In this document: in pieces, positions 6,034-27,926 of the stretch
How the letters are laid out: the number at the start of each line of letters is the position of its first letter
Position numbering within the stretch: position 1 is the first letter of the stretch
Assembly: GCF_031432215.1 (NCBI RefSeq)
Contig: NZ_JAVKGN010000002.1
Coordinates: forward strand, 1-64,000
From: Halodesulfurarchaeum sp. HSR-GB
GTDB lineage: Archaea; Halobacteriota; Halobacteria; Halobacteriales; Halobacteriaceae
Direction: 5' to 3'
DNA length: 64,000 bases
The notes under the pieces: generated by a model
What the model was told of the DNA's origin: nothing
The model's input: the letters and a program-made list of their open reading frames with translations, nothing else
Database searches by the model: none
Made by a program: the position numbers and the translations under genes

Positions 6034-7108
6034 CGAAATCCAAGGCGAACGGCCAGAAGGACGGCTCGTAATCGACTCACTCAAAGAACCATCCGTCATT
6101 CCTATGTTGGGATGGAGCGAGGTAGATACCTTCTTCGGGTTGGGAGCTCTCTCAATAGGAGGGATCATTGGAGTGATTCTAAACCTTCAATGGTATTTTG
6201 TCCTCGGATTAGGGCTTCTCACAGGCGGGATCGGAATGGCATTAGTCAACGCAGCACCGCCATATGGGAATGTTATTGAGTTCTTCAAAACGGTAAGCTA
6301 CTACACCAAGCACCACAATAAGGTAAAGAATCAAGCCGAAGCGGCTATCGAAGCAAATGATTCCCTTATCGCACAATTTCAGACGCCCGAAACTACTCGA
6401 GAACGCACGAATATCAAACGATTCATTCCCAAATATGGCCTGATTGAACGCACAACTGGCGAATTCCAGGTTATGATGAAATATTACCCTGCGAACCAAG
6501 ATTTCGTCGAACCGCAGGAACTAATCGATCTGATCAACACTATCGAGCAATGGGCCATCACCGATGGGAATTTCGACTGGGATTGGTGGGTCACAACCAA
6601 ATCAGTTGAAACAGAAGAATACATCGTAAACCTACAAGCCAAACGATATGACACCTCCAACGACCGAACAGTGATCGAACAAGAACTTCTCCGATCAATG
6701 GCCACAGAGGAGGCCGAAACCATCCGACGCAGCTCCGAAGTGCCAGAATACTACTTCCTTATCGATGTCACAATCAAGGAGGCCTCAGATGACTACGTGG
6801 GCGATAAATCTACTCTCCAACGGGCAGCTGAAACGCCCGTTATTGGGACACTATTTAAGGGATTCGTTGAATCACAAGAAGAATTGACTGAGGAAGAGAA
6901 ATATGATCAAATGCTCTCTGTCATCCAGCGCCGAGTCAACAAGATATCACGACTGGCGGAGAACCTTTCTGGCGCACGGATGGAAACCGTCCCAATAGAG
7001 GATTACATCAAACTCCAATTCGAGTACTGGAACGGTTACTCAACCGATCTAACCACACCCAGACAATCACCGATCGTCAAACCCGAAGAACCTCAAGGTG
7101 AAGCATAA
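6023..7108 (+). CDS. Two-TM T4SS protein with VirB4 N-terminal-like domain (PrgI/VirB3-type)
   Basis: A 361-aa protein. Two adjacent TM helices (about 34-52 and 56-76) are followed by a cytosolic domain of about 260 residues with an alpha/beta pattern. A short TM hairpin of this kind is typical of PrgI/VirB3 proteins, which pair with VirB4. The C-terminal part (VIQRRVNKISRLAENLSGAR, then PIEDYIKLQFEYWN) resembles the end of the N-terminal domain of CagE/TrbE/VirB4 proteins. I infer a VirB3-VirB4N arrangement split from the ATPase encoded next. It overlaps genes on both sides (11 bp upstream; TAATG downstream), consistent with stoichiometric co-translation. Confidence 0.65.
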   Translation: MATNEIQGERPEGRLVIDSLKEPSVIPMLGWSEVDTFFGLGALSIGGIIGVILNLQWYFVLGLGLLTGGIGMALVNAAPPYGNVIEFFKTVSYYTKHHNKVKNQAEAAIEANDSLIAQFQTPETTRERTNIKRFIPKYGLIERTTGEFQVMMKYYPANQDFVEPQELIDLINTIEQWAITDGNFDWDWWVTTKSVETEEYIVNLQAKRYDTSNDRTVIEQELLRSMATEEAETIRRSSEVPEYYFLIDVTIKEASDDYVGDKSTLQRAAETPVIGTLFKGFVESQEELTEEEKYDQMLSVIQRRVNKISRLAENLSGARMETVPIEDYIKLQFEYWNGYSTDLTTPRQSPIVKPEEPQGEA

Positions 7109-9768
7109 TGATGCCAGCAATCGCCTCAGAACTTCAAGAACCGATTTTCTACATACCAAGGGAGCTATGGAATTACGTCGTGAAGCCCCTCCCTTCCGTT
7201 GATGGCGCCTGTTCGACACCTGAATGTGCCGTCCCTCTCAGTGTTATTCTGATGTACGGTGCTCTACTCATCGGAATAGCTCTTCTCTTCTCAATCATCA
7301 GAGATTGGCGATCCAATGTAAAATCAAGCAGTGGTTCAGATTCGGACGATGGTGATTCTGACGGCCCAGACACATCAATACCCGAAGATTCTCTCATTCA
7401 ACGGCTCCCAGGCCCAATTGCCAAACTAGCAGTCAAATTCATAGGAGGCAGTTCAACAACCGGATCCGACTCAGATTCCGAAGGGAACGATCAGACAAGC
7501 ACAAAACCCGGTACAATTGAAAGCGATGAGGATCAAGAAGATCCCTTAGATACCAACGTTCCCACAGTTGAAGAACTCCACCAGCAACAAATTGCCTCGA
7601 GTGGGATCAATGACAGTTGGAGAAGCACCCAAACCGGCCAGTATCATCGGCGGGTTATGGTTGCCGATCCTGGAAAAATGGACGACGAGATAACCGTGGG
7701 AGGCCTACTGAAATTCTTCTCAGATCCCACCAATCAATTCGACATGAATGTCAGGGTCAAGCCAATTGATCCTGAGAAGGCCAAAAAAGAAGCCCAAGAG
7801 CGAACCGAAGGGCTCCAGGACTCAGCGAGTATCTTCAGCCAGGAAGGCCAAGATCAATTCATGGCGGGTGATTTCATCGAAGAAGCACAGAAAACAGCTG
7901 CGCTCGAAGAGGATTTCGACAATTCCCGCCCATTCAAAGTGGCAATTTACGTCTCAGCCAGAGCGAAATCAAAAGAAGAACTCGAGAACATCGTCGAGAA
8001 TATCCGCCGACAATTCCGTCGAGACGCAAACATCGAGCTTGTTACCCTTGAGGGTGAACAGAATCGGGGAAGCGTGGCAACGTCTCCGATTGCCGACGAT
8101 CCATTTTCAAACATGGAAACGTGGCACAACTTCTGGTTCGTGACCACAGCACGGGGCGTTGCGACCCTCCTCAGTTCATCAACCGAATCAACTGTCGTAG
8201 AAAGCGATGGTCAATTCTGGGGAACACACGCACTAAACGGGACGCCTATCATCAAAAACCCGTTCAACTCCCCGAAAAACTACAATATGACGGTTATCGG
8301 GGAGTCAGGGACCGGAAAGTCTCTCTACCAAAAATTCCTCGGAGCAAGCGCCGAAGTCCTCTTCGACGACACGAAGCTCATCGTCCTTGACCCACTCGGA
8401 GGGTTCACAGGACTCGCAGAAGCGTTTGACATCAATCCTATCACCGTCAGTGGTACACAGACAATTAACCCCCTCGAGATCGAAAAACCGCCAGAGGAAG
8501 TCATCAAGAGTGCCGAATGGTCCGATGACAGAGACCCCCTCGGGATGAAAATTAGCGAGGTAAAATCCTTCGCTCAAAACCTTGCAGCGGAAAACAACAT
8601 CACATTGAATAGAGAACTCCCAATATTCGAGCGAATCATCCTCGAGGTCTACGAAGATGCAGGAATTACAAGAGACGTCCGAACACACGGCAAAAAATCG
8701 CCGACCTTCGAGGACGTCTTCGAAAAGATCGATGAGATTGCCGTGGACGTTGAGGACTGGATGGATGGAGTCGCCATGGGAGCAGAAACCGAAACCATCG
8801 AGCGACACCTTTCGACTCTCAAAAACGTCTTCCGACCTCTGAAACACGGCAAATATGAGAATCTCGTTGGAGAAACTGATGTCAAGATTTCCGACGAGGA
8901 TATGGTCTACCTCAGTATGGAACAGCAAGACACCGGATCCGGAGGTGGTGCCGGTGTTATGGGCCAAATCTTGTTCAGCCGGATCTACGAACACGCCAAA
9001 ACGACGCCAAAGAACGTCATTTTCGTGATCGACGAGGCCCGGTTCCTCTTCCGAGATAGCGACTCCCTCGAATTCCTCACTCAGCGGGTCCGCCAATCAC
9101 GCCACCACAACATGTCTATTCGGTTCATTACTCAGGAGATTCAAGACTTCTTCTCCTACGACGGTGCCGAGGGGATCGTGAAGAACAGCACGTTCAAAAT
9201 CATCCACAACATCCCCCGGAGTACAGCCAAGGAATATCAGGATATCCTTGGTCTCAAAGATGCTCATATCGACTTCATCGTCGACATGAACACAGGTGGG
9301 ACGAACGAAGACTACTCCGAAGCACTCGTCCAAATGCCAATGGAGGGTGGGGAAATTAAATGGATTCCTGTAATGATCAGCCCCAACGAAACACAAATGG
9401 CAATCATCGACTTCGATGGCGATGAAGACACCCGAGCCGATCTACCTGGTGTCTCGGATCAAATCAGCCAATCTGCAATCGTCAGAGAACTACGAGCCCG
9501 GATGCGAACCGGAGAAACATCGCATGAGGCCGCACTTGACTCAGCCCTTGAAGATTGGCAAAAGCCAATCGTCAAATTCCTCTCGGATGAGGATATCAGC
9601 ATCACCCTCGATCGGGTAGCAGAAGGGGTCGATATACAAACTGCCCTCAGAGAACAGGGGATTGAACGACTCAAATGGGTCGCAGGAGAAACAGCCGGAC
9701 CCACAACAGCCAACGAGATAGAAGAGATATTCGAAGAGAACATCCCCCAAATCGAAGAAAACGTCTAA
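7108..9768 (+). CDS. virB4: VirB4-like conjugation ATPase
   Basis: An 886-aa protein. One N-terminal TM segment (about 46-66) and an acidic linker precede a VirB4-type N-terminal domain (about 190-350) and a RecA-like motor. Walker A is GESGTGKS near residue 398, Walker B is VIFVIDEARF near 636-645, and an arginine-rich stretch (RVRQSRHHNMSIRFITQ) follows at about 660, as in VirB4/TraC. The length is typical of the family. It powers assembly and substrate movement in type IV secretion. It is the last gene of the 850-9768 operon and is followed by a T-rich stretch at about 9788-9800. A second Met immediately follows the first (ATGATG). Confidence 0.92.
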   Translation: MMPAIASELQEPIFYIPRELWNYVVKPLPSVDGACSTPECAVPLSVILMYGALLIGIALLFSIIRDWRSNVKSSSGSDSDDGDSDGPDTSIPEDSLIQRLPGPIAKLAVKFIGGSSTTGSDSDSEGNDQTSTKPGTIESDEDQEDPLDTNVPTVEELHQQQIASSGINDSWRSTQTGQYHRRVMVADPGKMDDEITVGGLLKFFSDPTNQFDMNVRVKPIDPEKAKKEAQERTEGLQDSASIFSQEGQDQFMAGDFIEEAQKTAALEEDFDNSRPFKVAIYVSARAKSKEELENIVENIRRQFRRDANIELVTLEGEQNRGSVATSPIADDPFSNMETWHNFWFVTTARGVATLLSSSTESTVVESDGQFWGTHALNGTPIIKNPFNSPKNYNMTVIGESGTGKSLYQKFLGASAEVLFDDTKLIVLDPLGGFTGLAEAFDINPITVSGTQTINPLEIEKPPEEVIKSAEWSDDRDPLGMKISEVKSFAQNLAAENNITLNRELPIFERIILEVYEDAGITRDVRTHGKKSPTFEDVFEKIDEIAVDVEDWMDGVAMGAETETIERHLSTLKNVFRPLKHGKYENLVGETDVKISDEDMVYLSMEQQDTGSGGGAGVMGQILFSRIYEHAKTTPKNVIFVIDEARFLFRDSDSLEFLTQRVRQSRHHNMSIRFITQEIQDFFSYDGAEGIVKNSTFKIIHNIPRSTAKEYQDILGLKDAHIDFIVDMNTGGTNEDYSEALVQMPMEGGEIKWIPVMISPNETQMAIIDFDGDEDTRADLPGVSDQISQSAIVRELRARMRTGETSHEAALDSALEDWQKPIVKFLSDEDISITLDRVAEGVDIQTALREQGIERLKWVAGETAGPTTANEIEEIFEENIPQIEENV

Positions 9769-11224: not shown

Positions 11225-12409
11225 ATGTGGAGCAGAGTTCAGCAGTCAGTACAATCACTATTTGGTGAAGACCCGCCTGATGAAACGTGGGGCGATCTCA
11301 ATAAACCTCAGCGGGAGGATTTGCCGGATCGGTTGGTAAAACTCCGCCCTCGACGCACTAACCCCGGAGTGAAAAGAGGCCCCGATCTTGCAAAACATCT
11401 CCACGGGTACAAATCTGGCAAATGGCCGTTTTCTAATGCGAGTGACGAATCATCGTTCGAGCTCTGGTATGAAGACGGAGAACTCGAGATAATTTTTGCT
11501 CCCGGGGGCCAATCCTCGACAGATCGCTTCCAGCGTTCAATTGAAACATTATACTCACGCACAGCCACGCGGCCTTCAAATCGGGTTTGGCCTTCGATCC
11601 CGGAAAATTACTATCTCCGGGGGGCAACCACCTCTTTTGAAGAGAAATTCTTCCTTCCGATAGCTCGAGTCCAGGAACTCAAAACTGATCCCTTGGACAC
11701 GATCGGAAACGCAATTGCAGTTGATGCCCTTGAGGCCACTCACGGAATTATTGACGGCTCTGAAGCCCGGTTTGTCTTTCAATTAATGTTGAAACCAGCA
11801 TCGGATGTTTGGGCTAAACGTCCGCCTTTCGGGATTGACATGGAGAGCGTAGCTGAGACGTACAAGAACAAGAAGTACAAAGGAGGAGCCTCCCGCCTGT
11901 TCGGAGACAAATCGGGGAATATTGACCCGTCAGCTGACGATATCCGGATTGCGCGGGTTCTCAAAGACCAATTCGGCCAACCCGGATTCTATATTAAAAT
12001 TCGGCTTGTGGCTGCGACACCTGATCCAACAGCCACCTCGAATTATTTCCGGCGTGTCGAAAACGCACTCACAGCCCTCGATAACCCCTATTCCCAACAG
12101 TCGATTTCGGCGGAAATTCAAAAGGAATCCAGGTTAGGCAAACTCATTCATAACATGATCGCACGAGATATGGGATTGAGTCTCACCGATCGTATGGGTG
12201 AGCGGAAAATGATGGCGACGACTGACGAACTGGCGTCTATTCTACACCTGCCAACTGATGGAAACATTACAGCCATTGACTGGGCTACGATGGACCAGGG
12301 TTATGGTGTCCCAGAGGATCTCCCGGGCTTCTGGGATGTCGTAGACGATACCGAGTTTGAGAGCGCAATGAAACAAGACCTACTCGAACTGACCGGAGTG
12401 AACCCATGA
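11225..12409 (+). CDS. Accessory protein of the coupling ATPase; resembles the N-terminal part of the 1666-aa ATPase
   Basis: A 394-aa soluble protein without Walker motifs. The order of recognisable blocks is ELWYEDGELEIIFAP (about 78-92), FQRSIETLYSRTATRP, ARFVFQLMLKPASDVW (about 181), FYIKIRLVAATPDP (about 258) and DELASILHLP near the end. The same blocks in the same order appear to precede the motor domain of the protein encoded at 14034 (ELYFGAEDDMETLDDRLREI; VMVQIIFRAKKDW; FSVNIRAISARP; AIELSSVFIIPSG), so this looks like the separate N-terminal partner of the next gene's ATPase. It overlaps the next gene by 4 bp (ATGA). The leaderless promoter supports ATG 11225. Confidence 0.75.
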   Translation: MWSRVQQSVQSLFGEDPPDETWGDLNKPQREDLPDRLVKLRPRRTNPGVKRGPDLAKHLHGYKSGKWPFSNASDESSFELWYEDGELEIIFAPGGQSSTDRFQRSIETLYSRTATRPSNRVWPSIPENYYLRGATTSFEEKFFLPIARVQELKTDPLDTIGNAIAVDALEATHGIIDGSEARFVFQLMLKPASDVWAKRPPFGIDMESVAETYKNKKYKGGASRLFGDKSGNIDPSADDIRIARVLKDQFGQPGFYIKIRLVAATPDPTATSNYFRRVENALTALDNPYSQQSISAEIQKESRLGKLIHNMIARDMGLSLTDRMGERKMMATTDELASILHLPTDGNITAIDWATMDQGYGVPEDLPGFWDVVDDTEFESAMKQDLLELTGVNP

Positions 12410-14031
12410 ACTCGTTTAATGATTCAGCAAGCGAAAGTACAGAGTCAGAACCCGACCCTCACAAAGAAGAGAAAGAACTGATCAAAAGCAGACTGGGCGA
12501 GTACACAGAGCGATATGCCCTACAGAGCGAGAGTATTGAAACCAAATACGGGCGAAATCTAATCTCCGACGCTAGGACTGTCGATGGCATTGACGGCCAA
12601 TACGCAAGCCCCGAATTACGGAAACGGATTGAATTTTCGCAGATCAATCGCGAACAACCCATTTGGTTAGGGATCGACACCAATTCTAAGCGAGACGTTG
12701 GGATCCCTCGCGAACGTTTCTTTCAACACACGCTCATTCTCGGGTCGACAGGATATGGAAAAACGACTCTTCTAAACAATACCCATCTTCAGCTCATCTT
12801 AAGCCAAACCGGGATGGCGATTATCGACGGCAAAGGGGACAACACGCCCCACCTGTTTCAACGGATCCCTCAGGGACGATTGGATGACGTAATCTACCTC
12901 GATATCGGCGGGTTCAAAGGCTATGCTTCTGGTTTCAATTACCTCGATACTGGCCTCTCTCCTTCCGATCCTGCCTACGATACTTTGGTCCGTTCGATTG
13001 TGACCAATCTCTTGCTCCTACTTGACGTCGATGCCGTGGTCGAAGACAGATTCGAAAACATTCTCGTCGAGGTCGTGGATACGATGATTCGTGTCGATAC
13101 AGACCTGACTTTGGCCGACCTCTACACATTCCTGGATGAGATCGATTTCAGCGCAACCGGGTCTTCGGAAAATCAGGACCAGGACGTTTCGTGGCCGAGT
13201 GAGACCAACTCGGCTGACAAAGAAATCAATCTTGAGGACATTTCCGACCGTTTCATTCAGAGTATCATGGAGACAAATACCGAAATCATCGATGCACTCA
13301 ATCACCTAACTACTGTCCCAGACGAACAGCTCGAGCATTTCCACAATGCCTTGGGGTCACTCCTTCGAAAGAAACCTCTTCGCCGGCTGATCAACCAACG
13401 CACTTCCGACTTGACGATATCAGATGCCGTCGACAATGGCAAGGTCATCATCTTCCGGTTAACAGGCAGTACGAAAGAACGGAAATTGCTCGGTACTGCA
13501 TTTCTTCGACGGCTATGGGCAGTCCTTCGATCGCGGAGTGAAATGCGTGAAGAGGAACGGAATCCGTTTTTCGTCTCGATCGACGAAGGCCAAAACGTCG
13601 TTCGGGACAGCGTAACCGTCTCAGAAATGTTGCGAGAGGCACGAGGGTACAATGTCGGCTTTCTCTTTGCCACTCAAAATTTAGCAGGAATAGACCCCGA
13701 GACAACCACTCAACTCTACAGCAACTCAGAGTCAATTCTAACATTCAGTCAAGGCGGCACCCAAGAGGTCGAACAAGTTGCCACTCAGCTGGATGTGGAC
13801 TCACAAACCCTCATAAACGAATCCAAATACCATGTGTGGCTCCGTATCGACCGACCTGACAAAGGCCAACGCACCGATCCAATCCGGGTCTATACTATGC
13901 CACCATACCCACCGCTTCGATCCCGAGAGGCGAGGGATAAAGTACTAGAAGAAAATATCAAGAAATACGGCACTCCAACCGATGAAATGAGCGCCTTCGC
14001 GGCCATCTCAGAACTTTCGATGTTCAACTGA
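12406..14031 (+). CDS. virD4: VirD4/TraD-like type IV coupling ATPase
   Basis: A 541-aa P-loop ATPase. Walker A is LGSTGYGKTT near residues 111-120 and Walker B is FFVSIDEGQNV near 387-397; a nearby MAIIDGKGD block is typical of the VirD4/TraD/HerA superfamily. The C-terminal region contains EARGYNVGFLFATQNLAGI, matching the sensor/TraG C-terminal motif (ATQ) of coupling proteins. There are no N-terminal TM helices, so it would dock to the membrane through partners. It is coupled to the accessory protein upstream (ATGA overlap), and the next ATPase gene starts 2 bp after its stop. It would deliver DNA to the VirB4/VirB6 channel encoded upstream. Confidence 0.88.
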   Translation: MNSFNDSASESTESEPDPHKEEKELIKSRLGEYTERYALQSESIETKYGRNLISDARTVDGIDGQYASPELRKRIEFSQINREQPIWLGIDTNSKRDVGIPRERFFQHTLILGSTGYGKTTLLNNTHLQLILSQTGMAIIDGKGDNTPHLFQRIPQGRLDDVIYLDIGGFKGYASGFNYLDTGLSPSDPAYDTLVRSIVTNLLLLLDVDAVVEDRFENILVEVVDTMIRVDTDLTLADLYTFLDEIDFSATGSSENQDQDVSWPSETNSADKEINLEDISDRFIQSIMETNTEIIDALNHLTTVPDEQLEHFHNALGSLLRKKPLRRLINQRTSDLTISDAVDNGKVIIFRLTGSTKERKLLGTAFLRRLWAVLRSRSEMREEERNPFFVSIDEGQNVVRDSVTVSEMLREARGYNVGFLFATQNLAGIDPETTTQLYSNSESILTFSQGGTQEVEQVATQLDVDSQTLINESKYHVWLRIDRPDKGQRTDPIRVYTMPPYPPLRSREARDKVLEENIKKYGTPTDEMSAFAAISELSMFN

Positions 14032-14033
14032 CC

Positions 14034-17000
14034 ATGTCAACGAAGACAAAACAAATCCACGGAGATGGAAAGTACGTCGACGAATACATCAAAATCGTCC
14101 CAACAGAGGAAAACGTCACAGATTCACAAATCGCCCAGCAGATCAAGAGCTTGCGAAATTTCAAAAAAGACATCGAAGGCGGTGTCTTAGCAAAGCGGTT
14201 CGGAAAAGAAGAGCCACTAAATATCGCACTTCATGCATACAGCGAAGGAGAAGACGAACCAGTTGAGCTCTATTTCGGTGCCGAAGACGATATGGAAACA
14301 CTTGATGACCGTCTTCGGGAAATATACCCTTCATCCTGGTCAGTAGAATGGGTGAAAATCGACCCACAAAAATTGATTCACCGGCCAGTTGAACTCGATT
14401 TGCAGGAATTCCAGCACCATCTTACTCATGGTAATCTCTTGATTGATGCCGAAGATTTCGCAGCCAATTCTGTAGTCGACAAAGAAAAAGACGAAGAAGG
14501 AGATGGAGCGGAAAGCGACGGCTCAAACGGACCTCTTGAAACAAATGACCCTTCTTCCAAACCTGCATCAGATGACGAAACCCAACCCGTCGAAGGAAAT
14601 TACACCCCCTCACCAGAGGAAGGGGCAGCGGGAGTCCAAGCCTTCGAATCCGAAGCCGAAACTGAACTCCCTAATCTCGCCGATGATGTTGATGTAGAAT
14701 CAACCATCTATCAATTGGACCCCGCCTCGAATATACCTCAAGATGGAACTCGTTCAAATCTAAACCGACCAACACTGACTGGCGATGGAACCGTCTACGC
14801 CCGTCTAGGCAAAGATGCGACGGCTTTCCAAGGGGTGCGATGGTTTGGTATTCCAGACCGCAAAAACGACTGGATGACGACCCTCGGACCAGGGGAATCC
14901 CATCTGTCAGATGTTACCGGAGAAAAAGAGACGTCAGAAGATGTCACCGTTCTAAATTCGCTCTTCAACAGAATGACGGATATGGCTGAACCTGTGATGG
15001 TTCAGATCATATTTCGGGCCAAAAAAGATTGGTCAAAATCAGCTGAAAAGCGCAAGAATTCGATTCGCAAAGGCGAAGACACGTTTGGACAAAAAATTCT
15101 CTCCGATATTGCAGTCGCAAGGGAGAAAAACTCGTCTAGTTCGCCATCGGATGAAGACTCCTCTTCAGAGGATGATTCTGTTGATTATTCAAGTCTCAAT
15201 ATGCAAACGGGCGATTTTGGCGAGGTATCCAAACAACAAAAACAACGGCTGGACCGGATCGATGCGAAAGAGCCGGAGAAAACCTTCTCCGTAAACATTC
15301 GAGCGATTTCAGCACGACCGATACTTGGCCCACTTTACGCGAATCGGACGGAAGAAGATCAACAGCATGAGCTCAGACAACTAAGCAACCTCCTCGACCC
15401 ACTCGAAGGCCGTTTCTACAATATTGAAGGCGAACTGGTCCTCGATGACAGTGGTGCAAAAGCTACAGACGGTGGAATCGTTAGTAGCGTGAAAGGGAAA
15501 ATCAGCAATCGACAAATAACCCCTCTCGACGTTTACGACCGGATTCTCGATTGGGAATTGCTATCTGAATTTGATAAGGACCCATTCCTCGAGCGCCTCA
15601 AACAGGGGAAGAAAAAACAGCCCGAGATCGTGATGAATGCAATCGAATTGTCGAGTGTGTTCATCATCCCCTCCGGAGATAAAATGTCTCGGGAAGCATA
15701 CCGAATGACCCACTCGACTCAAATGGACTCTCGGCCTTTGACTCCTCCAAAACCCAAATTGCTTAATCAGTTCAAAAACGGGATGGCAATCGGACATCCG
15801 GTTGACCAACAGGGTTCACCTCAAGACAAGCCAGTTGAATTGACTGAAGATGTTCTCAACACTCACTACGCCAGATTCGCTGCATCAGGTGCAGGGAAAA
15901 CCGTCGCGACGATAAACGATATTCTCTCACTTCACAGAAATATCGGTGGGCCCACGATCCTAATCGACCCGAAGGGGGGAGATATGTGTCCCTCCTATCT
16001 TCGAGCTCATTTCGCTCAGTTCGGCACGCTCCAAGACGTCCACTACTTCAAAGCACCAGAAAACATCCCGGCGATCCCATTCTTCGACATCCGCCCATTG
16101 ATAGCTGGGCGAATGGACCGCGAAGACGCGATCCAGCACAAGGTCGATCACTTCCATGAAGTGATGGCGATGATCATGGGAGAAGACTACGAGCGTGCCT
16201 ATGTCGGTCGGATGATTATCACCTATCTAATCAAGGCACTTTTCGACAGGAAAACCGCCGGGAATAAGGACCAAACTGACGATAACGCAAGTCCAGAGTC
16301 GGGCGGGGAAGGAGACAACGAACAAGATGCAGATGGGCAAGCAACCTCCCACTCTCCTGAAGACCCTGATAACGACGAAAAAGGGGCCTACCTTTTCGAT
16401 GAAGGTCCCGGTGACGAATCTGAAGAGGATCCCGATGGCGAATATATTGACGAAGATTCTGATATGGATGATCTGTTAGACCAATCCAAACTCTACGAAG
16501 AACGTGAACGAGGGCCTGATTATTTCGGATTCAACGAACTCTACTCGGCAGCAAAAGCAATGCTTGAGAATGAAGAGATACCTTCTACTTCCACCCCTGA
16601 CCAACCCGAAATGGCTCTCGAACGCCATACTGAGCAATCTGATCGGGACTTCCAGCAAACGATGAGCGCGGTGATCAACCGCCTCGACAAGATTCGAGAG
16701 AACATCCACATTTTCAAGATGTTCCAATTGATGGCTCATTGGGACGAAGAAAACGACAAATACGTCTACGAACACGAAGAGACGGGAGACGAACGACCAG
16801 TCTTAGACTTTGCTGAATTCTTCGACGAGGATGCAGTGATTCTCTTTGATATCGGCGATCTCCGAAACGAATCCCAGAGAGCGATGACTGTCACTATCGC
16901 CAGTCAACTTTGGGCTCAATTGAAAGCCAACCGAAGACGGGTCCAAGGAGAACTGAAAGAAGATTCACCACAGGTCAACCTGATCATTGAGGAAGCTAAG

Positions 17001-19034
17001 GACGTCATCGTTTCCGATCTATTCCGGAGTGACATCATCCCAGAAGCCCGTGAATTCGATTTATCTCTCGGTCTCATCATGCAGTACCCCGAACAGGCCA
17101 AACACGAAACGGGTGATAAAGGCCTGTATAGCGAGATTATGAATGATATTCAAGCGAAGATGTTTGGGAAAATCATGGTCGAAGACCGAGTGGCGGAGTC
17201 GATCACTCACGGTGTTCGAAATGAAACTAGCATCCGGAATAAAATACAAAGCCTTCCAAAGGGCCGGTGGATCGCAGACTTGCCTGCCCCCACATATGGG
17301 ATGGAACGTCCCTCCCCCTTCTCGATTTCTGGCCTCGAGATCCCATTAGGTCATCCGAAACACGAACGTGAAATGACTAAAGCTGGCTATAATGTCTTCA
17401 AAGATCAACGGCGGAAATCCTTCGAGAAGACTCACAAAGAACTCGCCCTAGGGCCAGTCATTGATTTCGACGAGGCTGAACCAGAAGAAGGTGCACCAGG
17501 TGTATCGAGACAAACAAAAGCACGCGAGGGAGACAAATATACAAGCGATCTCAAAGCCCAAAGTAGGATTTCTGGCAAACCAAAATCGCCTGACGCAGAT
17601 ATCACAGAACGAAAAGACTTTGACGATACCGGGGAGCATAGCGGGGCCATAGACAACCAACTCACAGAGGATGTGCCTACCAAAGGGGCCGGAACGTCAA
17701 ATACGAAAGACGAAACTCCATCGGAAAATGCGAGCGGTGCAGCAATTCCAGCCCAAGCTAATGCTAATCAACCGGCCAATCAAGGTCCAGACGTAGATGC
17801 CGAGGAAGGTGGCTCATTCGGCAAAGAAGACCGAGAAGAAGTCAATAACCTCCAAGAGGATTATGGAGGTGCTGATCAGCACGAAACAACTGACCCCAAC
17901 GAAGGACCGAAAACAGGCGGTTCAGATTCCTTCACAGACGACAACTCAAGCGAACCCGAAACACAATCCCAGCCCAAGAGAGAGAAAACGAAAACCCAGC
18001 TCGGCATCCCTCGATACGGAGACACATTCAAATTCGACGACGAATCGGTCGCCGAAGAAGACATACTCAAATTCATGAACGAATTCGGAGAAGGTGATCC
18101 ACACACCACCCTTTCGATGATTTCGAGATTGGAATTCAGTGCAGAGGGGTGGGTTGAACTCATCGGGGTCTACCTCGACCAAGATGATGACCGAACGATC
18201 GAGGACCTGAGTGAATTGCCAGAGGGGTATGAACTTGATACAGTTGAAGATGAACTCGATGACAAACGGCTAGGACTCGAGGATCCAGAAGTAGTCACCG
18301 CAGAAGAATTCCCGATTCAAGCAATAAATCTGGAAGGGAATGATCTGTCCGGCTCACAAGCGAAATTCCTCATTATGATTGGCCGTGCCGTCAAAGGCAA
18401 TCTGGATGATTATGACCTCCTTGATTCGATGAAAGACCTCCCCGAACGGGCCGGAGGTCCCGACCTCGACGACCTTGAGGATCGAGATTTCATCCAAAGG
18501 GAAAAACTACAGAGCAAGTACTTCACTCTACTTCCGAAGGGGTGGAAGGCAATCCCTGTAGACCAACCCACAAATCCAGGTGAGGGTGATTGGGCCGAAC
18601 ATACCCCTCACCGTGTGATCGTAGAAACTCTCAAACGATACTACGATGAAAAAATGGATTTCGATATTGTAATGAAATACTACAGAATTGGCGATTCTGT
18701 CTTTGACTTATTTGCAGCCGAATCTCTTGATGATGATGCCAAAAATGTAATTGCGGAAATTGAAATGGACGATAATGACCACAAAGGCACCATGCAAGAT
18801 TACCATAAAATGGCCGCTCGGAGTGGGGCGAAAAGTCTCTGGGTATTCAAATCCAGTTCGGAGGCGAAGAAAATCGTGAACAGGATCCTCGAGGAATTAG
18901 ATGAAGAACAATTGAGCACGGAAGATACACGCTCTATCACGAATATGAATGAGGCTTTGGAAGAGCGGTCATTGCCCGGGCTGAATGAGGTAATGACTTT
19001 CCACAATCTCAAGCAGGAGGTCAAATCAACATGA
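14034..19034 (+). CDS. Giant HerA/TraG-like ATPase (accessory domain fused to P-loop motor)
   Basis: A 1666-aa protein, very acidic. Order: an N-terminal domain resembling the separate 394-aa protein (about 1-560, interrupted by disordered Glu/Asp/Ser linkers); an FtsK/HerA-like motor with Walker A AASGAGKTVA near 617-626 and Walker B VNLIIEEAKDVI near 980-991, containing a large acidic insert (about 740-840, DDNASPESGGEGDNEQDADG); a low-complexity linker (about 1130-1320); and a C-terminal helical region (about 1330-1666) with possible winged-helix features. It looks like a fused duplicate of the preceding two genes, enlarged by acidic inserts. A second coupling protein or a DNA pump/segregation motor is the likely role. 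It overlaps the primase gene by 4 bp (ATGA). Confidence 0.8.
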   Translation: MSTKTKQIHGDGKYVDEYIKIVPTEENVTDSQIAQQIKSLRNFKKDIEGGVLAKRFGKEEPLNIALHAYSEGEDEPVELYFGAEDDMETLDDRLREIYPSSWSVEWVKIDPQKLIHRPVELDLQEFQHHLTHGNLLIDAEDFAANSVVDKEKDEEGDGAESDGSNGPLETNDPSSKPASDDETQPVEGNYTPSPEEGAAGVQAFESEAETELPNLADDVDVESTIYQLDPASNIPQDGTRSNLNRPTLTGDGTVYARLGKDATAFQGVRWFGIPDRKNDWMTTLGPGESHLSDVTGEKETSEDVTVLNSLFNRMTDMAEPVMVQIIFRAKKDWSKSAEKRKNSIRKGEDTFGQKILSDIAVAREKNSSSSPSDEDSSSEDDSVDYSSLNMQTGDFGEVSKQQKQRLDRIDAKEPEKTFSVNIRAISARPILGPLYANRTEEDQQHELRQLSNLLDPLEGRFYNIEGELVLDDSGAKATDGGIVSSVKGKISNRQITPLDVYDRILDWELLSEFDKDPFLERLKQGKKKQPEIVMNAIELSSVFIIPSGDKMSREAYRMTHSTQMDSRPLTPPKPKLLNQFKNGMAIGHPVDQQGSPQDKPVELTEDVLNTHYARFAASGAGKTVATINDILSLHRNIGGPTILIDPKGGDMCPSYLRAHFAQFGTLQDVHYFKAPENIPAIPFFDIRPLIAGRMDREDAIQHKVDHFHEVMAMIMGEDYERAYVGRMIITYLIKALFDRKTAGNKDQTDDNASPESGGEGDNEQDADGQATSHSPEDPDNDEKGAYLFDEGPGDESEEDPDGEYIDEDSDMDDLLDQSKLYEERERGPDYFGFNELYSAAKAMLENEEIPSTSTPDQPEMALERHTEQSDRDFQQTMSAVINRLDKIRENIHIFKMFQLMAHWDEENDKYVYEHEETGDERPVLDFAEFFDEDAVILFDIGDLRNESQRAMTVTIASQLWAQLKANRRRVQGELKEDSPQVNLIIEEAKDVIVSDLFRSDIIPEAREFDLSLGLIMQYPEQAKHETGDKGLYSEIMNDIQAKMFGKIMVEDRVAESITHGVRNETSIRNKIQSLPKGRWIADLPAPTYGMERPSPFSISGLEIPLGHPKHEREMTKAGYNVFKDQRRKSFEKTHKELALGPVIDFDEAEPEEGAPGVSRQTKAREGDKYTSDLKAQSRISGKPKSPDADITERKDFDDTGEHSGAIDNQLTEDVPTKGAGTSNTKDETPSENASGAAIPAQANANQPANQGPDVDAEEGGSFGKEDREEVNNLQEDYGGADQHETTDPNEGPKTGGSDSFTDDNSSEPETQSQPKREKTKTQLGIPRYGDTFKFDDESVAEEDILKFMNEFGEGDPHTTLSMISRLEFSAEGWVELIGVYLDQDDDRTIEDLSELPEGYELDTVEDELDDKRLGLEDPEVVTAEEFPIQAINLEGNDLSGSQAKFLIMIGRAVKGNLDDYDLLDSMKDLPERAGGPDLDDLEDRDFIQREKLQSKYFTLLPKGWKAIPVDQPTNPGEGDWAEHTPHRVIVETLKRYYDEKMDFDIVMKYYRIGDSVFDLFAAESLDDDAKNVIAEIEMDDNDHKGTMQDYHKMAARSGAKSLWVFKSSSEAKKIVNRILEELDEEQLSTEDTRSITNMNEALEERSLPGLNEVMTFHNLKQEVKST

Positions 19035-19933
19035 ATTGGAGACCCTCAAAACCCGGTGAGATGAATTCCTTCTACCAGGAGGAATTCCCAGATTACAAAG
19101 ACTCAATGCCGCCATTTGTGCAGGATAGACACCCCAAAGAGTACGGGATCGAATTGGAACCCCCCCACCCGATCAAGAAAAACGAAGCATCAAAACGGTC
19201 GTTCATCCGGAGGCATACAGCCACAACTAACGGAGAGAGAAGGCAACAACTGATCAGCCCGTTTGAGGGGGTCGGCGATCAAGGGATCCACCCAATCAAC
19301 TTCATACAAAACCCTGCAAAAAACGATCCAACGAACTCAGGTTATGAATTGACCGACCCCGCAGTGCTGGAAGATGGGACCGATCCAGTCGCTAAATCGG
19401 TGTATGCTTCTCTCGATAATTGGGATCGGAATCGGATCACAGCAGTTGATATCGACGCCAAAGATGTCGCCCTCAATCGTCTCCCTCTCGATGAGGACGA
19501 TCAAAAAGACGACGAGACAGAACAGCAGGCCAAGCTAAGACAATCAAATGTGGTTGAAGCAAGTCCCGAGGGATTCCCATACGAATTCAAGGACATTCGG
19601 CGGGCCATACAGATGGCCTTCGAGATCAAGAACATCTTTGAGACTAATTACGAAGCTGAATCCACACTCGTCGTTTACTCTGGTCAGGGAGCCCATGTTT
19701 ACCTATTAGATAACGACGACTACCACAACTATGACGAACCGAGCCGAAGGGTAATCGCAACGGACTTGATCGAAAATCATGGATACCCAATCGATAAAGC
19801 AGTCACCATCCAAGACAACAGACTCTTGCGGGTTCCGTTCACCCTTCACTCGGGGGTGAGTCGGGTAGTGACCCCGATCGAGAGCCCGGATTTCGACTTC
19901 AAAACGCAATCAAAGCCGAGGTTCCTACAATGA
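19031..19933 (+). CDS. priS: Archaeo-eukaryotic primase small (catalytic) subunit-like protein
   Basis: A 300-aa protein. It carries the three signatures of the PriS/AEP catalytic core: an acidic pair in AVDIDAKD (D140, D142), the S-x-x-x-x-H motif in VVYSGQGAHVYLLD (S217, H222), and LRVPFTLHSGVSRVV (near R267), which corresponds to the family's RLPGSLH-type motif and includes the basic nucleotide-binding residues. Host PriS is usually longer (about 350-390 aa), and no zinc-knuckle cysteines are visible here. It would make RNA/DNA primers for element replication or for the complementary strand after transfer. It overlaps both the ATPase gene upstream and the PriL-like gene downstream (4 bp each). 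Confidence 0.85.
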   Translation: MNWRPSKPGEMNSFYQEEFPDYKDSMPPFVQDRHPKEYGIELEPPHPIKKNEASKRSFIRRHTATTNGERRQQLISPFEGVGDQGIHPINFIQNPAKNDPTNSGYELTDPAVLEDGTDPVAKSVYASLDNWDRNRITAVDIDAKDVALNRLPLDEDDQKDDETEQQAKLRQSNVVEASPEGFPYEFKDIRRAIQMAFEIKNIFETNYEAESTLVVYSGQGAHVYLLDNDDYHNYDEPSRRVIATDLIENHGYPIDKAVTIQDNRLLRVPFTLHSGVSRVVTPIESPDFDFKTQSKPRFLQ

Positions 19934-21498
19934 GCAGTAACCTGGTCGAAAACACAACAGATGCCATTCAGATCGCTGCAAGCCCAGCTGAACAGCCGGA
20001 AATGGCATTTGAACAAGTGCTGAGTAAAGCTGTAGGGCGTTTCGGAAAAACCCGCAATCCGAAAGAAAAACTCGCTCAAAAAGTCGATGAATTTGGCGTC
20101 GAAGCTCTTTACAATCACACTTCAAAATTGTCGGTGGCTGAATACAGGGACATCGTTGTGAGGGACCCTCTTCAGTTGATGATTAGAGCAGGTTTTGCTA
20201 CTATTGTGATGGAGAATCACGACCGAGTTTCAGGGATTCCCAACGAGTACATCAAGCTCTCAGATTATGTTGCAAACGAATATGCGAGAAGTATTACTGG
20301 GTTAATTGACGCAGACGAATACGAAATTGATGAAGAATGGATCTACGACGTCATTGGAGATCGGCTGTATGCCAGTTCATCGCCAAAGAAGGAAACACAC
20401 CCGGGAACCGTCATTTCTCGAACGGATGCAACGTTTGAGGATAAAGCCGGGAAATTTGTTGAAATACCACTTATTTCAGCCTCACCAAAAGCACTGATTT
20501 ACGCCTCGGATAATTCGTGGGAAGGCAAATTCAATCAAGGGAATGGTCAGGTCGAAGGTGAACTACATTCCTTTGTGAGGAACAACAACCTCTACGTTCC
20601 ATTCCGTCATCTCAAATGGAAACACTACCACACTCTTGCGGATGATTTCGAGGTATTTGTCAACTGGCTCCAGGACAAAATCACAAGTGGCGAATTGCAG
20701 CACTTGCTTGAAAACACTCCAAAAATCGATAGTGAGATAGAAGGCTTCTATAGTAGAAACAAGAAAGGGGCTGTCGTTACAGGATGGACTGAAGACGAAC
20801 AATTGATTCGGGTTCTTACGACTGTATTAGAGGACTCAAACTTAGATGAAAACGCCCCACATTCAGCAAGCAAACTCCACAAACTCACAAATCATTATAC
20901 CCTCGAGGATTGGCAACAGGCAATAGTCAATCAGATCACGAGCCCAAAACAGCTTGGAAAGAAGCTCACAAGCATCGCCAAAAATAGCGGCTCCTCGAAC
21001 GTAACCATCCAAGAAAATGAGGAGGGTACAAGGAACGAATATATTATCGGTCAAGTCGGGCGAGACACGCGAAGATTGGCAGTGAATGAACTAGAGGATC
21101 TTTTCGAATTGCCCTGTTTCAACAACCTTGATGAGCGCCTGAAAAACAAAGGGCCTACTCGTTGGGAACTGTATTCATTGGTCCGCACCATCTCTTGGCT
21201 GCCGGAATACTATGACAATGATTTCGGAGACACTTTAGAGGATATCAAAGATCTCTTTTCGAGATGGTCATGGTATGATCCAGCTGAAACTGAATACCAA
21301 GTCCAGTATGAATTGACCGGGAGTAACAACCTTGGTTTGATGGATGCAGATGCGGAAGTGCTTCCGCTAAATTGTAACAACGAGAATTGGGAAGCCAATT
21401 ATTGCATTGGGGCAGATGAGTGTCCTTACTACACAATGTATTCGGCCCTTCCATTCCATCAAGACCTCTACGATCAACTCGATGATGGCAACGACTAG
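19930..21498 (+). CDS. priL: PriL-like Fe-S primase large subunit
   Basis: A 522-aa protein. The C-terminal part matches PriL-CTD layout: LPCF (C396), then GPTRWELYSLVRTISWL, an acidic helix, DPAETEYQVQYEL (the family's ...KTRYQIEH... element) and three more cysteines in PLNC (C482), NYC (C492) and ECPYY (C498). Four Cys at these positions ligate a 4Fe-4S cluster in archaeal and eukaryotic PriL. The N-terminal 380 residues are mostly helical and much diverged. The protein would regulate the PriS-like partner encoded immediately upstream (ATGA overlap) and start primer synthesis. It ends the operon and is followed by a T7 tract at 21532-21538. Confidence 0.8.
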   Translation: MSSNLVENTTDAIQIAASPAEQPEMAFEQVLSKAVGRFGKTRNPKEKLAQKVDEFGVEALYNHTSKLSVAEYRDIVVRDPLQLMIRAGFATIVMENHDRVSGIPNEYIKLSDYVANEYARSITGLIDADEYEIDEEWIYDVIGDRLYASSSPKKETHPGTVISRTDATFEDKAGKFVEIPLISASPKALIYASDNSWEGKFNQGNGQVEGELHSFVRNNNLYVPFRHLKWKHYHTLADDFEVFVNWLQDKITSGELQHLLENTPKIDSEIEGFYSRNKKGAVVTGWTEDEQLIRVLTTVLEDSNLDENAPHSASKLHKLTNHYTLEDWQQAIVNQITSPKQLGKKLTSIAKNSGSSNVTIQENEEGTRNEYIIGQVGRDTRRLAVNELEDLFELPCFNNLDERLKNKGPTRWELYSLVRTISWLPEYYDNDFGDTLEDIKDLFSRWSWYDPAETEYQVQYELTGSNNLGLMDADAEVLPLNCNNENWEANYCIGADECPYYTMYSALPFHQDLYDQLDDGND

Positions 21499-21682: not shown

Positions 21683-22049
21683 CCCTCACACAACCGTTTT
21701 CCTGCATATTGCTCGATCTATTCCACTAGTTGTATCAATTTTCCATATTTCAACCGTTTCAAGCCCTCACACAACTGTTTAGCCCAAATTAATGGGTTGA
21801 GACGTCGGTTAAAGTGGGCAAAACGCCGAATTATGGGGTTTTGGGGCGTCACACAACCGATTAGATTTCCAGAATACATCAGATGGCACCCTATCGGGCT
21901 CAATCGCCCGAATTTATAACTATCAAGCCCTCACACAACCGATTTGGAGACAAAACCCGGATTTTGATTTTTTCACAACCCCGGTTATTTGATTAGAAGC
22001 GAGTAAACGATCTATAGGCAAATCTAAGCCAGTTTTCACAACCCCAAAT
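21683..22049 (+). repeat. Phased iterons CCCTCACACAACCG, candidate replication origin
   Basis: Direct repeats of CCCTCACACAACCGTTT start at 21683, 21764 (one change), 21846 (shorter match, TCACACAACCGATT) and 21928: spacings of 81, 82 and 82 bp. Two degenerate copies (TTTCACAACCCC) follow at about 21971 and 22033. Further TCAACCGTTT (21750) and CGTCGGTTAA patches fall between. The 880-bp interval 21499-22377 has no convincing gene and is AT-rich compared with the following segment. Same-orientation iterons next to primase genes suggest an origin or replication-control locus. A centromere-like partition site is the main alternative. Confidence 0.55.
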
Positions 22050-22207
22050 CCTGTTTCTACTTCCGTAAGGGGGGTGGGGAAATAGTAGTAATAGAGAAGG
22101 ATGTCGGGAGAGGTGTAGAGCAGACGCCGGGACAGGGCTTGGAGGGAGATGGAAATATCAGTTAGGCTGAAATGGGTGTGGGACACCCAGGATTAGATAG
22201 AGGGTTG

Positions 22208-22240
22208 CCCCACCAGGGCTGGCTAAGTGATGGGGTGGGG
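22208..22240. repeat. Hairpin in the intergenic region
   Basis: Arms CCCCACC (22208-22214) and GGTGGGG (22234-22240) with a 19-nt loop. It lies in a gene-free stretch (22060-22377) where I see nothing else but a T5 tract at 22351 preceding the next gene. Confidence 0.35.
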
Positions 22241-22377
22241 TTCACGATGGCACAGGAACGTAGTGAGTAACGGACTCGAGCTGTGGTTTGGATATCGCGG
22301 AGACGGGAGACGCGGGGAAAGCGAGGTCGGGTAGCGCAGGGTGGCTGGAGTTTTTCTGCGCCGTGAGGAATTGAACT

Positions 22378-22584
22378 ATGAGCAGTAGTACTGCAGGAGT
22401 CCAGTCGACCCTGGGGAGTATCGAGCGGTCGCACGGGATCACGCCGGAGGAGCGGAAGCGTCAAGTCGGGTCAGAGAGCCTGCCAGCTCGAGGTCGGATT
22501 CGCGATGAACGCGAGTTCATCCCGGAGGGTCGAGGCGCGATGCGTGGGTCGGGGTTCACGCACACGATGGAGGGCGACCGATGA
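22378..22584 (+). CDS. Small basic/disordered hypothetical protein
   Basis: A 68-aa protein, Gly/Arg/Glu-rich, without recognisable domain. Support comes from context: a T5 tract at 22351-22355 and a GTGAGG patch precede the ATG exactly as at many genes further on, and the stop overlaps the next ATG (ATGATG). It opens the GC-rich segment, whose codon use differs from the genes to the left. Confidence 0.5.
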   Translation: MSSSTAGVQSTLGSIERSHGITPEERKRQVGSESLPARGRIRDEREFIPEGRGAMRGSGFTHTMEGDR

Positions 22585-22844
22585 TGCAGGAACGAGCCCG
22601 GCGGGAGCCGGAGTTCGATGAGGCGGGGTTGGAGAAGGAGCACGAGGCGACAGTTCAGCGGTTGCCGCACATCGACGATCGGGCATCGGGCGAGGAAGGC
22701 TGGTATGGGGCGTGGGTCACGGACAGGCCGTGCCCCAGGTGCGAGGTCGGGGTAGTGGTTCGATCAAACTCGACGTCGACGCCGCCGACGATCTCGAGCA
22801 AGTCGTGTTCGGCAAATTGTGGGTGGGGAGATTCCGATCTGTAG
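22581..22844 (+). CDS. Small zinc-ribbon protein
   Basis: An 87-aa protein. The C-terminal half has CPRCEVG followed about 20 residues later by SKSCSANCGWG, a C-x2-C/C-x3-C arrangement typical of small haloarchaeal zinc ribbons. The N-terminus is acidic and helical. It overlaps the previous gene by 4 bp. A T7 tract (about 22856-22862) follows the stop. Nucleic-acid binding is plausible but unproven. Confidence 0.6.
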   Translation: MMQERARREPEFDEAGLEKEHEATVQRLPHIDDRASGEEGWYGAWVTDRPCPRCEVGVVVRSNSTSTPPTISSKSCSANCGWGDSDL

Positions 22845-22876
22845 GCCACGACGTCTTTTTTTGCCGAGTACAAGAC

Positions 22877-22928
22877 GACCCGGTAACCGTACCGGGTCAT
22901 GGTCTACCGGGTGACCGTACCGGGTCAT
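22877..22928. promoter_or_regulatory. Palindromic CCGGGT operator-like repeats
   Basis: A near-perfect palindrome with 9-bp arms GACCCGGTA/TACCGGGTC (22877-22898) is followed by a second, partly repeated unit. ACCGTACCGGGTCAT occurs at 22886-22900 and again at 22914-22928, 28 bp apart (rather less than three helical turns). The block lies about 95 bp upstream of the histone-fold gene and just after the T7 tract closing the upstream gene, so it is probably an operator or other protein-binding site. Confidence 0.5.
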
Positions 22929-23021
22929 TGAGAGTCGTTGCGCCGCCGGGGGTAGACGTCGAGGGCGCTGATACGATCTGCGAGGGTTTAAGGGGGTTGA
23001 GACCGGAGAATTAGTTGTCGC

Positions 23022-23189
23022 ATGTCGGAGCTAATCGTCAAGGCAGCAGTCAAGGAAGCGGTCGGTGAAAAGAACGTCTCCTCGGAGTTTTACGAGGCGC
23101 TGGATGAGGAGGTAGGCGAGCTCCTCGATCGGGCGAGTGAACGAGCGGAGGCGAACGACCGGAAGACGGTGCAGCCGCGAGACCTGTAG
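23022..23189 (+). CDS. 55-aa histone-fold protein (DUF1931-like)
   Basis: A 55-residue protein that reads MSELIVKAAVKEAV at the start and RAEANDRKTVQPRDL at the end. The pattern (short helix, long central helix with EFYEALDEEVGELLDRA, then K-T-V-x-x-R-D) is a single minimal histone fold and closely matches small haloarchaeal DUF1931-type proteins as I remember them. A TATA-like TTTAAGG about 35 bp upstream and the lack of a clear Shine-Dalgarno suggest a nearly leaderless mRNA. It may act as an element chromatin or partition protein. The palindromic repeats just upstream could be its own operator. Confidence 0.8.
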   Translation: MSELIVKAAVKEAVGEKNVSSEFYEALDEEVGELLDRASERAEANDRKTVQPRDL

Positions 23190-24616
23190 GCAAGCCCACC
23201 GTCCAGGAAGCCGGTCGCCTCGACCCGCCGTGCCGCCGCTGCGCGACGGTGGTGTGCTTACGGCGTCAGGGCGGGCTCGAGATTGCCCGCTTCCTGAAAG
23301 ACCTGATTTCAGTTTTCGAGAGAGGCGATGCCCGGAAACCTCACGACCGTGTGAGGTATGCTTGCCCTCTCCGCAGGGCCGGGCCCCTTCTCGCACGGTC
23401 CGGGACCTGATCGCCGGGTCACGATCGTCGGGCGAACCTGCCCGCTCTAGACGCCGAGCGGGTCCCTTCACCCGAGATCGACCGCGTCAGGTCTCCGGTT
23501 ACCGAGCGAGAGAACTTCCCGGCGGTGGACACCCAGGTTCTAGGTCAACCGACCAACAACGTTGGGGGGCAAGTATCCCTCGGGATTCCTGCGCGGTCAG
23601 TTTGCCGATCGGCGCGACCGCCCCGCCACGCATCGCGCCGACGTTTACCTGCCCGCGCACCCCGGGTCCCTCCCGCTCTGACCACCGAGCGGGTCCCTCC
23701 CGGGGTACGGAACTGCGCGCGAGACTGCTCGCGCCTCAGCGCGAGCTTCCATCGTGCTCGGGTGCGCCATACGGGCCGGCGGCGCACCTCCTTCGACCGC
23801 GCGGGGTACGTAGTTCCCTGCTACCATTAATCTGAGTTACCCTATACGCCGCGCTCGACTGCGCTCCTCAACGACCGCTTGCGGTGCTCGCGTAGTCGTG
23901 TTCGCGCTTCGCCGTAGGGCTCGCGAACACTGCCGGGCTTGTGGGCCTGACACTATTCCACGACGGACTTGGTTGCGACGTGGAAGCCTTTTCTTGGCCC
24001 ATTCGCGGGCTGCCGGGCGCGACTCCTTCGCATGCAGATTCGACCGACTCTTGCTTCGGGCAACAACGCTCTCGCGCCGGTCGGACACTTCACCGACACG
24101 GCGCTGCGAGCCGCCGACGGACGGCGACTCCATCCCCAACGCCCCGCAACGCGGGGTCGCCGTTGCGACGGTTACAGGAACTTAATCCCCCCCAACAACG
24201 CCCCTTCAACCGACCAACACCGCCCCTTCGACGGGGGTTAAGTTCCCGGCGGTCGGCCCGCCCCCGACCGCGTTTGTTGCTCCTCGCGGGCGAGCGGACT
24301 TCATCGCATGCAGAATGCGTCGTGCCGGGCGATCCGCCTGACCGCAGGCGGACGAGCCGTATATGGGTAACTCTTCGGCGAGTGAGGGGAGATCGAAGGC
24401 TGCGGGCGCTGAGACGGACCGCTTCCGATGAGCAAGCTCATCGGCCGTCTCAGCACTCCTCGCAATACGATCTCTCCCTTCCTTCGCCTCGGTCGTCTTC
24501 GACGACCAGATCATAGAATAAATTGGCCCCGTCAGGGGCGTGCGCGACTCCGTCGGCGGTTGTGGCGAGTCGCGAGCGGTCAGTTGCGGTTTTTGCCCAG
24601 CTTGGGTGAAATAACA
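23190..24616. other. 1.4-kb GC-rich, palindrome-rich non-coding region
   Basis: No frame here has protein-like composition; the long open frames on both strands are Arg/Pro/Ser/Ala-rich products of GC-rich DNA. Visible structure: a repeated block CCCGCTCT...GAGCGGGTCCCT at 23441-23467 and again at 23672-23698 (spacing about 231 bp, itself able to form a hairpin); a hairpin TCCGCCTG/CAGGCGGA (24333-24352); a compound hairpin at 24408-24454; GCCCC/GGGGC (about 24526); and CGCGACTC/GAGTCGCG (about 24542-24574). Such density of inverted repeats suggests an origin, transfer origin, or degraded mobile DNA. Confidence 0.6.
24408..24454. repeat. Compound 47-bp hairpin (cruciform candidate)
   Basis: Outer arms GCTGAGACGG (24408-24417) and CCGTCTCAGC (24445-24454) are perfectly complementary. 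Inside them, CCGATGAG (24425-24432) and CTCATCGG (24437-24444) pair around a CAAG loop. Seven unpaired bases sit on the left only. That makes 18 perfect base pairs in two stacked stems, the strongest structure in this interval, about 160 bp upstream of the OB-fold gene. Confidence 0.65.
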
Positions 24617-25975: not shown

Positions 25976-26175
25976 TCGGGGGCCTTCGGGTCTTCGATTC
26001 GGCTTTTCTTTTTTCCGTATGCTACGTAGGGGGCGGTTCCTGACGGAACGCTCCAGTCGTGCCGGGCATACGTCCCGCTCTGGCCGATGCCGGGCGCGAT
26101 CCACGCTGCCTGGGTGTCGGTTCTGTTTTATTTTCCCCCTGCGAAGGTGGAGGTCCTGGATAGTGACATTGCACC

Positions 26176-26640
26176 ATGGCCCGAATTCCTGAGCTCGTTC
26201 GCAATCTCTCCGATCCGTTTGAAATCCGGATGGAGGAGATTCGATTCGAAGACTACTGTTCCAAGGTTGGTACCAGACCAGTAGTTGTTGACGGTCACCT
26301 CACCCACCTCCAGAGCCTCCGCTTTCGATACTCCGTTGACGTCCACGCCCCTGACAACCTGAACCCCCACGGGCGGCTCGCGATCTCGCACCCTGTGTAC
26401 CCTGACGGGGTGCGGGTCGTGATCCACTCTTCTCAAGAGTACCCGGTTTCGCGGTTCGACGTTTCCCGGCTTGCGCCGTCGACGTTGCGGCCTCATGCGG
26501 CCCATCTGCCGTTTGAGACCGCGCTTGACGTTGCGGTGGAGGCCGCTACATACTATCGGTTTTACCACTCCCCCGTGTTGCCGCCGCATCCCCGCGTTCG
26601 GCGGGCTGCCCGCCGTCTTCGGTCTGTCGTGTGGGGCTGA
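26176..26640 (+). CDS. Hypothetical protein
   Basis: A 154-aa protein with ordered alpha/beta composition; the C-terminus is basic (HPRVRRAARRLRSVVWG). No domain is recognised. The start at ATG 26176 is preceded by a T-rich tract (26126-26134), CCCCCTGCGAAGG and GGAGG, the junction unit seen throughout the accessory region, although here the tract is 41 nt from the ATG. Codon use is GC-rich like its neighbours. Confidence 0.6.
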   Translation: MARIPELVRNLSDPFEIRMEEIRFEDYCSKVGTRPVVVDGHLTHLQSLRFRYSVDVHAPDNLNPHGRLAISHPVYPDGVRVVIHSSQEYPVSRFDVSRLAPSTLRPHAAHLPFETALDVAVEAATYYRFYHSPVLPPHPRVRRAARRLRSVVWG

Positions 26641-27923: not shown

Positions 27924-27926
27924 GTT

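Follow-up and report, generated by a model that had tools for sequence, protein, structure and literature searches.

Structure of the primase locus

The stretch of DNA analysed here, hereafter the window, covers the initial 64 kb of a 170,342-bp plasmid contig (C2, NZ_JAVKGN010000002.1) of the haloarchaeon Halodesulfurarchaeum sp. HSR-GB, whose genome is in three contigs (the others are C1, 1.97 Mb, and C3, 104,878 bp). Examination of the window revealed, directly behind the gene of a predicted transfer ATPase (T1), two genes coding for proteins that we call S and L and that resemble the archaeal primase subunits PriS and PriL. These genes and the domains of L are the following:

14034..19034, + strand: T1, predicted TraD/HerA-like ATPase of 1666 amino acids whose C-terminal region is long (the window copy matches SXT_TraD at 7e-5)
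19031..19933, + strand: S, PriS-like catalytic subunit of 300 amino acids (D140, D142, S217-H222, D255, R264/R267, H273)
19930..21498, + strand: L, PriL-like subunit of 522 amino acids, NCBIfam "primase-associated protein" (NF038197 match)
20791..21054, + strand: predicted winged-helix domain of L, amino acids 288-375, following the N-terminal half and preceding the Fe-S domain
21091..21456, + strand: PriL-type Fe-S C-terminal domain of L, amino acids 388-509 (C396, C482, C492, C498; R411)

Both junctions are 4-bp overlaps: S begins at 19031, before the end of T1 at 19034, and L begins at 19930, before the end of S at 19933. The original prediction, made from the window alone, had seen here a complete PriS-PriL pair overlapping a transfer ATPase by 4 bp; the positions that it gave for both genes and the T1/S overlap are confirmed. 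The same genome carries a second, typical S-L copy on C3 (S 44% and L 32% identical to the window copy), as well as ordinary chromosomal priS and priL genes. Searches of genome and viral collections with single sequences gave no matches; a profile search with S gave 67 genome loci, and in profile searches S-L was absent from viral contigs and from the phage collection.

S is a PriS-type catalytic subunit

The single S sequence scored 21.1 bits against the Pfam family DNA_primase_S, under the gathering score of 26.8, and all 25 S family members compared with this family matched it (best 4.8e-6). The S family profile matched Pyrococcus PriS (1g71) with an E-value of 7.9e-9 in a collinear alignment that has the N-terminal, DIDAKD, YSGxGxH and IDxxVT segments in order. 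The residues on which a catalytic assignment had been based (D140, D142, S217, H222 and the stretch LRVPFTLH) are all present and are not there by chance: among 68 homologues D140, D142 and S217 never vary, and H222 is kept in 67, the last row having a gap at this position. A third catalytic acid had been overlooked in the original prediction: by profile alignment D280 of Pyrococcus furiosus corresponds to D255 of S (kept in 67/68), which rules out a loss of the third catalytic aspartate at Q261. Motif III of the window S does show a change of its own, Q261-D262 at positions that read D-R in 66 of 68 proteins, and this change leaves the catalytic acid unaffected.

The AlphaFold model of S is of low confidence, with a predicted local distance difference test score (pLDDT) of 51 and a predicted template modelling score of 0.49, yet the top 44 Foldseek matches were all PriS chains and the best VIA-align match was human PriS (Z 11.8, root-mean-square deviation 4.5, 148 residues). 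Profile, fold search and motifs thus agree that S is a homologue of PriS with the fold of the archaeo-eukaryotic primases (AEP), as had been proposed. In contrast to cellular PriS, it is short: the plasmid protein has about 100 amino acids fewer than the PriS of the host.

L is PriL-like by its C-terminal domain

L belongs to a family that is already known by name, the NCBIfam "primase-associated protein" NF038197 (prim_adj_arch), against which it scored 364.7 bits for a curated cut-off of 100; typical members score about 850, which makes the window L a divergent one. NF038197, together with the "DNA primase" encoded next to it on haloarchaeal plasmids, is the same family as S-L in the same order (ATPase, primase, primase-associated protein), and the annotation consulted for NF038197 makes no PriL or Fe-S assignment. 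No curated model labels the window L as PriL, and the PriL Pfam match is missing in 19 of 20 L family members, the last being a divergent protein that matches at 3.6e-4.

A comparison by hhalign of the last 147 residues of L with 51 chromosomal PriL sequences, controlled by 100 column permutations, gave a probability of 96.3, an E-value of 1.7e-9 and a score of 58.5, against a permuted maximum of 21.6. In this alignment C396, C482, C492 and C498 are in register with PriL C234, C306, C315 and C322, with spacings of 80-86, 9-10 and 6 residues in L versus about 70-73, 9 and 7 in PriL. None of the four cysteines, which had been singled out in the original prediction, varies among the 68 homologues, and the permutation controls rule out that L is an unrelated protein with chance cysteines. 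Additionally, three divergent L proteins match a PriL profile directly (3e-5, 5.6e-7 and 3.2e-7). R411, also invariant in 68/68, aligns with PriL R253 (retained in 42 of the 51 PriL sequences), the arginine 19 residues after the first cysteine; the yeast R355 and human R306 arginines have the same offset. These two residues are the initiation arginines of the respective primases (PMC5700102).

The AlphaFold model of L has a pLDDT of 53, with most of the N-terminal half and the C-terminus below 50, and because of the latter no structural overlay of the Fe-S site could be obtained. Foldseek with this model gave no PriL at E <0.001, and a profile search of the PDB with L gave no match. The best-predicted part is the winged helix (10-residue means mostly 72-89), which winged-helix chains match at Z about 6-7, the level of a common fold.

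On these sequence comparisons L is PriL-like by its C-terminal domain, with at most a putative docking domain. The claim of a complete PriS-PriL pair thus stands for S and for the C-terminal domain of L; it is too strong for the N-terminal half of L, which could not be recognised as PriL. S-L resembles cellular archaeal PriS-PriL in its two genes, its AEP motifs, a four-cysteine domain with matching spacing and the initiation arginine, and L differs from cellular PriL by the inserted winged helix as well as by its N-terminal half. A family formerly known only as "primase-associated protein" gains in this way a likely biochemical identity, that of a PriL-type Fe-S subunit.

A reading of the window copy as a pair in decay that has lost primer synthesis could appeal to its long branch (0.89) and to changes that it alone has at conserved positions (W135R, D261Q). 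Its frames are nevertheless open, the overlaps are kept and the three catalytic acids and four cysteines are present, and we consider such decay very improbable.

Transfer genes beside S-L and exchange of the primase

Upstream of T1, the following genes complete the transfer locus of the window:

7108..9768, + strand: VirB4-like transfer ATPase of 886 amino acids (NCBIfam CD1110-type VirB4 3.9e-37, TraC-F-type 9.5e-24)
11225..12409, + strand: T3, open reading frame of 394 amino acids without family match, overlapping T2 by 4 bp
12406..14031, + strand: T2, P-loop ATPase of 541 amino acids, VirB4/VirD4/HerA group (VirB4_CagE 4.4e-9, CedB 6.1e-8, TraD 6.1e-8)

A DnaJ-domain gene (9833-11026, - strand) is inserted antisense in the transfer operon, between VirB4 and T3. 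No homologue of T2 or of T3 was found in the 67 related S-L loci. S and L occur together in all 67 of these loci and T1 in 66, and 4-bp overlaps predominate (S/L in 48, T1/S in 47). Of the 57 loci with enough sequence, 55 have a homologue of VirB4 upstream of T1. T1 is classed as a putative TraD/HerA-like ATPase by weak, repeated matches: among 13 aligned homologues, DUF87/HerA was matched by 10 and TrwB_AAD_bind by 5.

Two forms of T1 can be distinguished in whole genomes, one that matches the full profile and adjoins S-L, and another that matches to about position 975. Thirteen loci of the second form were sampled by T1 score and not by their neighbours. In ten of them T1 is followed, after 0.2-1.9 kb and on the same strand, by the gene of an NrS-1-type PrimPol; five that were scanned match the Pfam family NrS-1 HBD (1e-29 to 1e-32), and for one the PDB gave the NrS-1 primase as a match at about 6e-38. 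Such a PrimPol is near S-L in only one of the 67 loci. It shares with S-L the AEP superfamily and the same ATPase neighbour, and differs from it in being a single chain without a PriL partner. The remaining three second-form loci encode a 673-amino acid protein in which AEP-like motifs were recognised by eye only. This exchange of the primase beside one ATPase is, in our view, the strongest indication from these data that priming is a part of the transfer machine. The NrS-1-type PrimPol and the 673-amino acid protein have in common a C-terminal coiled-coil segment, possibly a common docking piece.

The genes for the 673-amino acid proteins (L289:7336-9357, L292:6120-8141 and L293:8153-10168) start 40 bp after second-form T1; their products have no family match, and the motifs resembling those of AEP are DID and PLSIHA...VTPI. 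The winged helix of L was also compared with the C-terminus of second-form T1; the score was marginal (16.2 versus a permuted maximum of 15.1) and is not used as evidence.

A possible role in DNA transfer

We favour, with modest confidence, the reading that S-L is a plasmid-borne two-subunit AEP primase coupled to the T1/VirB4-type locus and priming DNA that is single-stranded in transfer. S would synthesise the primer in a complex with L, whose C-terminal domain, with a presumed Fe-S cluster and R411, would keep both template and initiating nucleotide in place, and whose winged helix probably grips DNA or a partner. S-L would be produced with, and coupled to, the adjacent T1; if DNA passes as a single strand, the primase could act during transfer and prime the complementary strand, in the donor or in the recipient, in the manner proposed for SogL of ColIb-P9. 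Like SogL, and like TraC of RP4, the S-L primase is encoded inside a transfer region. These bacterial conjugative primases are of the DnaG type, not AEP. The SogL primase is moved into recipients and is thought to prime the transferred strand (PMC8406263, PMC6112013); translocation has been shown for SogL and is hypothetical for S-L.

S-L may instead be a primase for plasmid replication or repair, working at forks or stalled sites within one cell, with T1 as a partner translocase and the position of S-L beside transfer genes reflecting module packaging. Plasmid AEPs such as ORF904 of pRN1 are replication proteins (PMC8076596), the S-L pair of the Methanomethylovorans hollandica plasmid pMETHO01 lies away from T1, and one T1-short protein ends weakly like phage/plasmid primase_Cterm (0.0023). 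Against this, the adjacency to T1 and VirB4 is conserved, and the Orc1/Cdc6 gene of the same plasmid is distant: on C2 it lies at 109 kb, about 88 kb from S-L at 19-21 kb, on C3 it lies at 13 kb with S-L at 64-67 kb, and only one of the 67 loci has it within about 10 kb of S-L. The primase genes on the chromosome of Halobacterium NRC-1 are essential (PMC1906834), and together with the distant Orc1/Cdc6 this fits a host primase that serves vegetative replication and an S-L that serves something else, in the simplest case synthesis of the strand in transfer. A role in replication or repair is rather unlikely, though it is the strongest competitor of transfer-linked priming. Of the two roles originally offered, second-strand synthesis after transfer is favoured because of the gene order and the exchange of primase type beside the same ATPase, and host-independent replication is disfavoured because of the 88 kb between S-L and Orc1/Cdc6.

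Several observations weigh against a two-subunit primase working in transfer. The window L has no Pfam match; its N-terminal half, which would be expected to dock S, scored 14.3 against PriL in hhalign for a permuted median of 13.1, no better than chance; the AlphaFold models of both proteins are poor. No relaxase was recognised, all matching plasmid records being typed "non-mobilizable". Finally, pMETHO01 has no T1 in the stretch read around its pair, which indicates that S-L is not bound to T1.

The lack of a recognised relaxase and the "non-mobilizable" typing would also suit a machine in which VirB4 and T1 import or package DNA (Ced-type import, plasmid vesicles) and S-L makes a single-stranded cargo double-stranded. 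T2 and second-form T1 (9.2e-9) both match CedB, and plasmids of the pR1SE type encode a VirB4/HerA-like ATPase whose suggested task is vesicle loading (PMC10818511). The present data fit import and export alike, the phage collection gave no match for S or L, and we regard import or packaging as improbable.

Transfer-linked priming can be extended to a wider reading, which is no more than tentative: archaeal conjugation-like systems may use a dedicated two-subunit PriS-PriL primase, passed through or docked on the coupling ATPase and exchangeable with a single-chain PrimPol, that makes the transferred single strand duplex. By analogy, this primase might be what archaea have, in parts of eukaryotic type, in place of the SogL/TraC transfer primases of bacteria. 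The exchange of primase type beside one ATPase offers a testable link between priming and transfer in haloarchaea, where the transfer machinery is poorly understood.

Distribution, origin and relation to known primases

Matches in plasmid records number 78 for S and 85 for L, all of the records listed being haloarchaeal. Of 391 Halobacteria genomes, 98 have L above the cut-off, and 48 of 86 genera have a match when its strength is disregarded. The distant pair of pMETHO01, annotated as hypothetical proteins, matches the family profiles at 3.4e-35 (S) and 2.1e-6 (L). A maximum-likelihood tree, a check that the original prediction had proposed, groups the plasmid S proteins, including that of pMETHO01, in one deep clade (100/99) outside chromosomal PriS, ruling out a recent capture of host priS. 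The tree was rooted at the midpoint and has long branches, and no claim is made on its deep order.

PriL has been described as nearly exclusive to chromosomal primases, the AEPs of mobile elements carrying PriCT domains instead (Kazlauskas et al. 2018, PMC5862659); the text of that study does not mention haloarchaea. PolpTN2 of the Thermococcus plasmid pTN2 (PrimPol-PV1) is a fused exception to this restriction. Like S-L, it is a plasmid AEP in which PriS- and PriL-like parts are combined with a winged helix and a predicted Fe-S cluster (PMC3973330, PMC5862659). It is however one polypeptide without the catalytic histidine of motif II, whereas S-L consists of two proteins, adjoins a transfer ATPase and has kept the histidine; the relaxed motif II histidine that marks PrimPol-PV1 (PMC5862659) is thus not seen in the 67 S proteins with a residue at H222. 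An element-borne PriS-PriL pair had been called unusual, a view that no longer holds, S-L being a standard module of haloarchaeal plasmids and pTN2 having a fused PriS-PriL (PMC3973330). Mobile elements, too, would then use a primase built of two subunits, an architecture regarded as almost confined to chromosomes (PMC5862659). In the open-access papers searched, no statement was found of the PriL-type nature of L, of the linkage to a transfer locus or of the exchange of primases, nor was any paper on the module.

Related genes and other features of the window

Homologues of L without a recognisable adjoining S occur in Halobacteria as solitary PriL-like genes (L041:1423-3030, L042:9606-11150 and L051:7970-9547), and two of the three match a PriL profile directly. 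Four proteins of 758-768 amino acids (L045:1692-3998, L046:1311-3617, L047:1006-3312 and L048:2489-4765) have an N-terminus homologous to the N-terminal half of L and a later part homologous to the C-terminal region of T1. In L045 and L048, a gene for a protein of 419-457 amino acids with CxxC motifs lies upstream, with an overlap of 4-8 bp. Short solitary PriS-like genes (243-312 amino acids; L260-L269, L271 and L272) were found in non-haloarchaeal Halobacteriota, where they are extra to the normal PriS and form a clade of their own.

Downstream of S-L, positions 22001-30000 of the window have 58-63% G+C versus about 50% in the rest of the plasmid, and coding is unclear there on both strands. 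The plasmid also bears tRNA-Gln (ttg) and tRNA-Thr (tgt) genes (41897-42056), next to genes for a cytosine-5 methyltransferase (40788-41846) and for TFB (39095-40096). Finally, a gene for a TnpB-family RNA-guided nuclease lies at 62422-63759.

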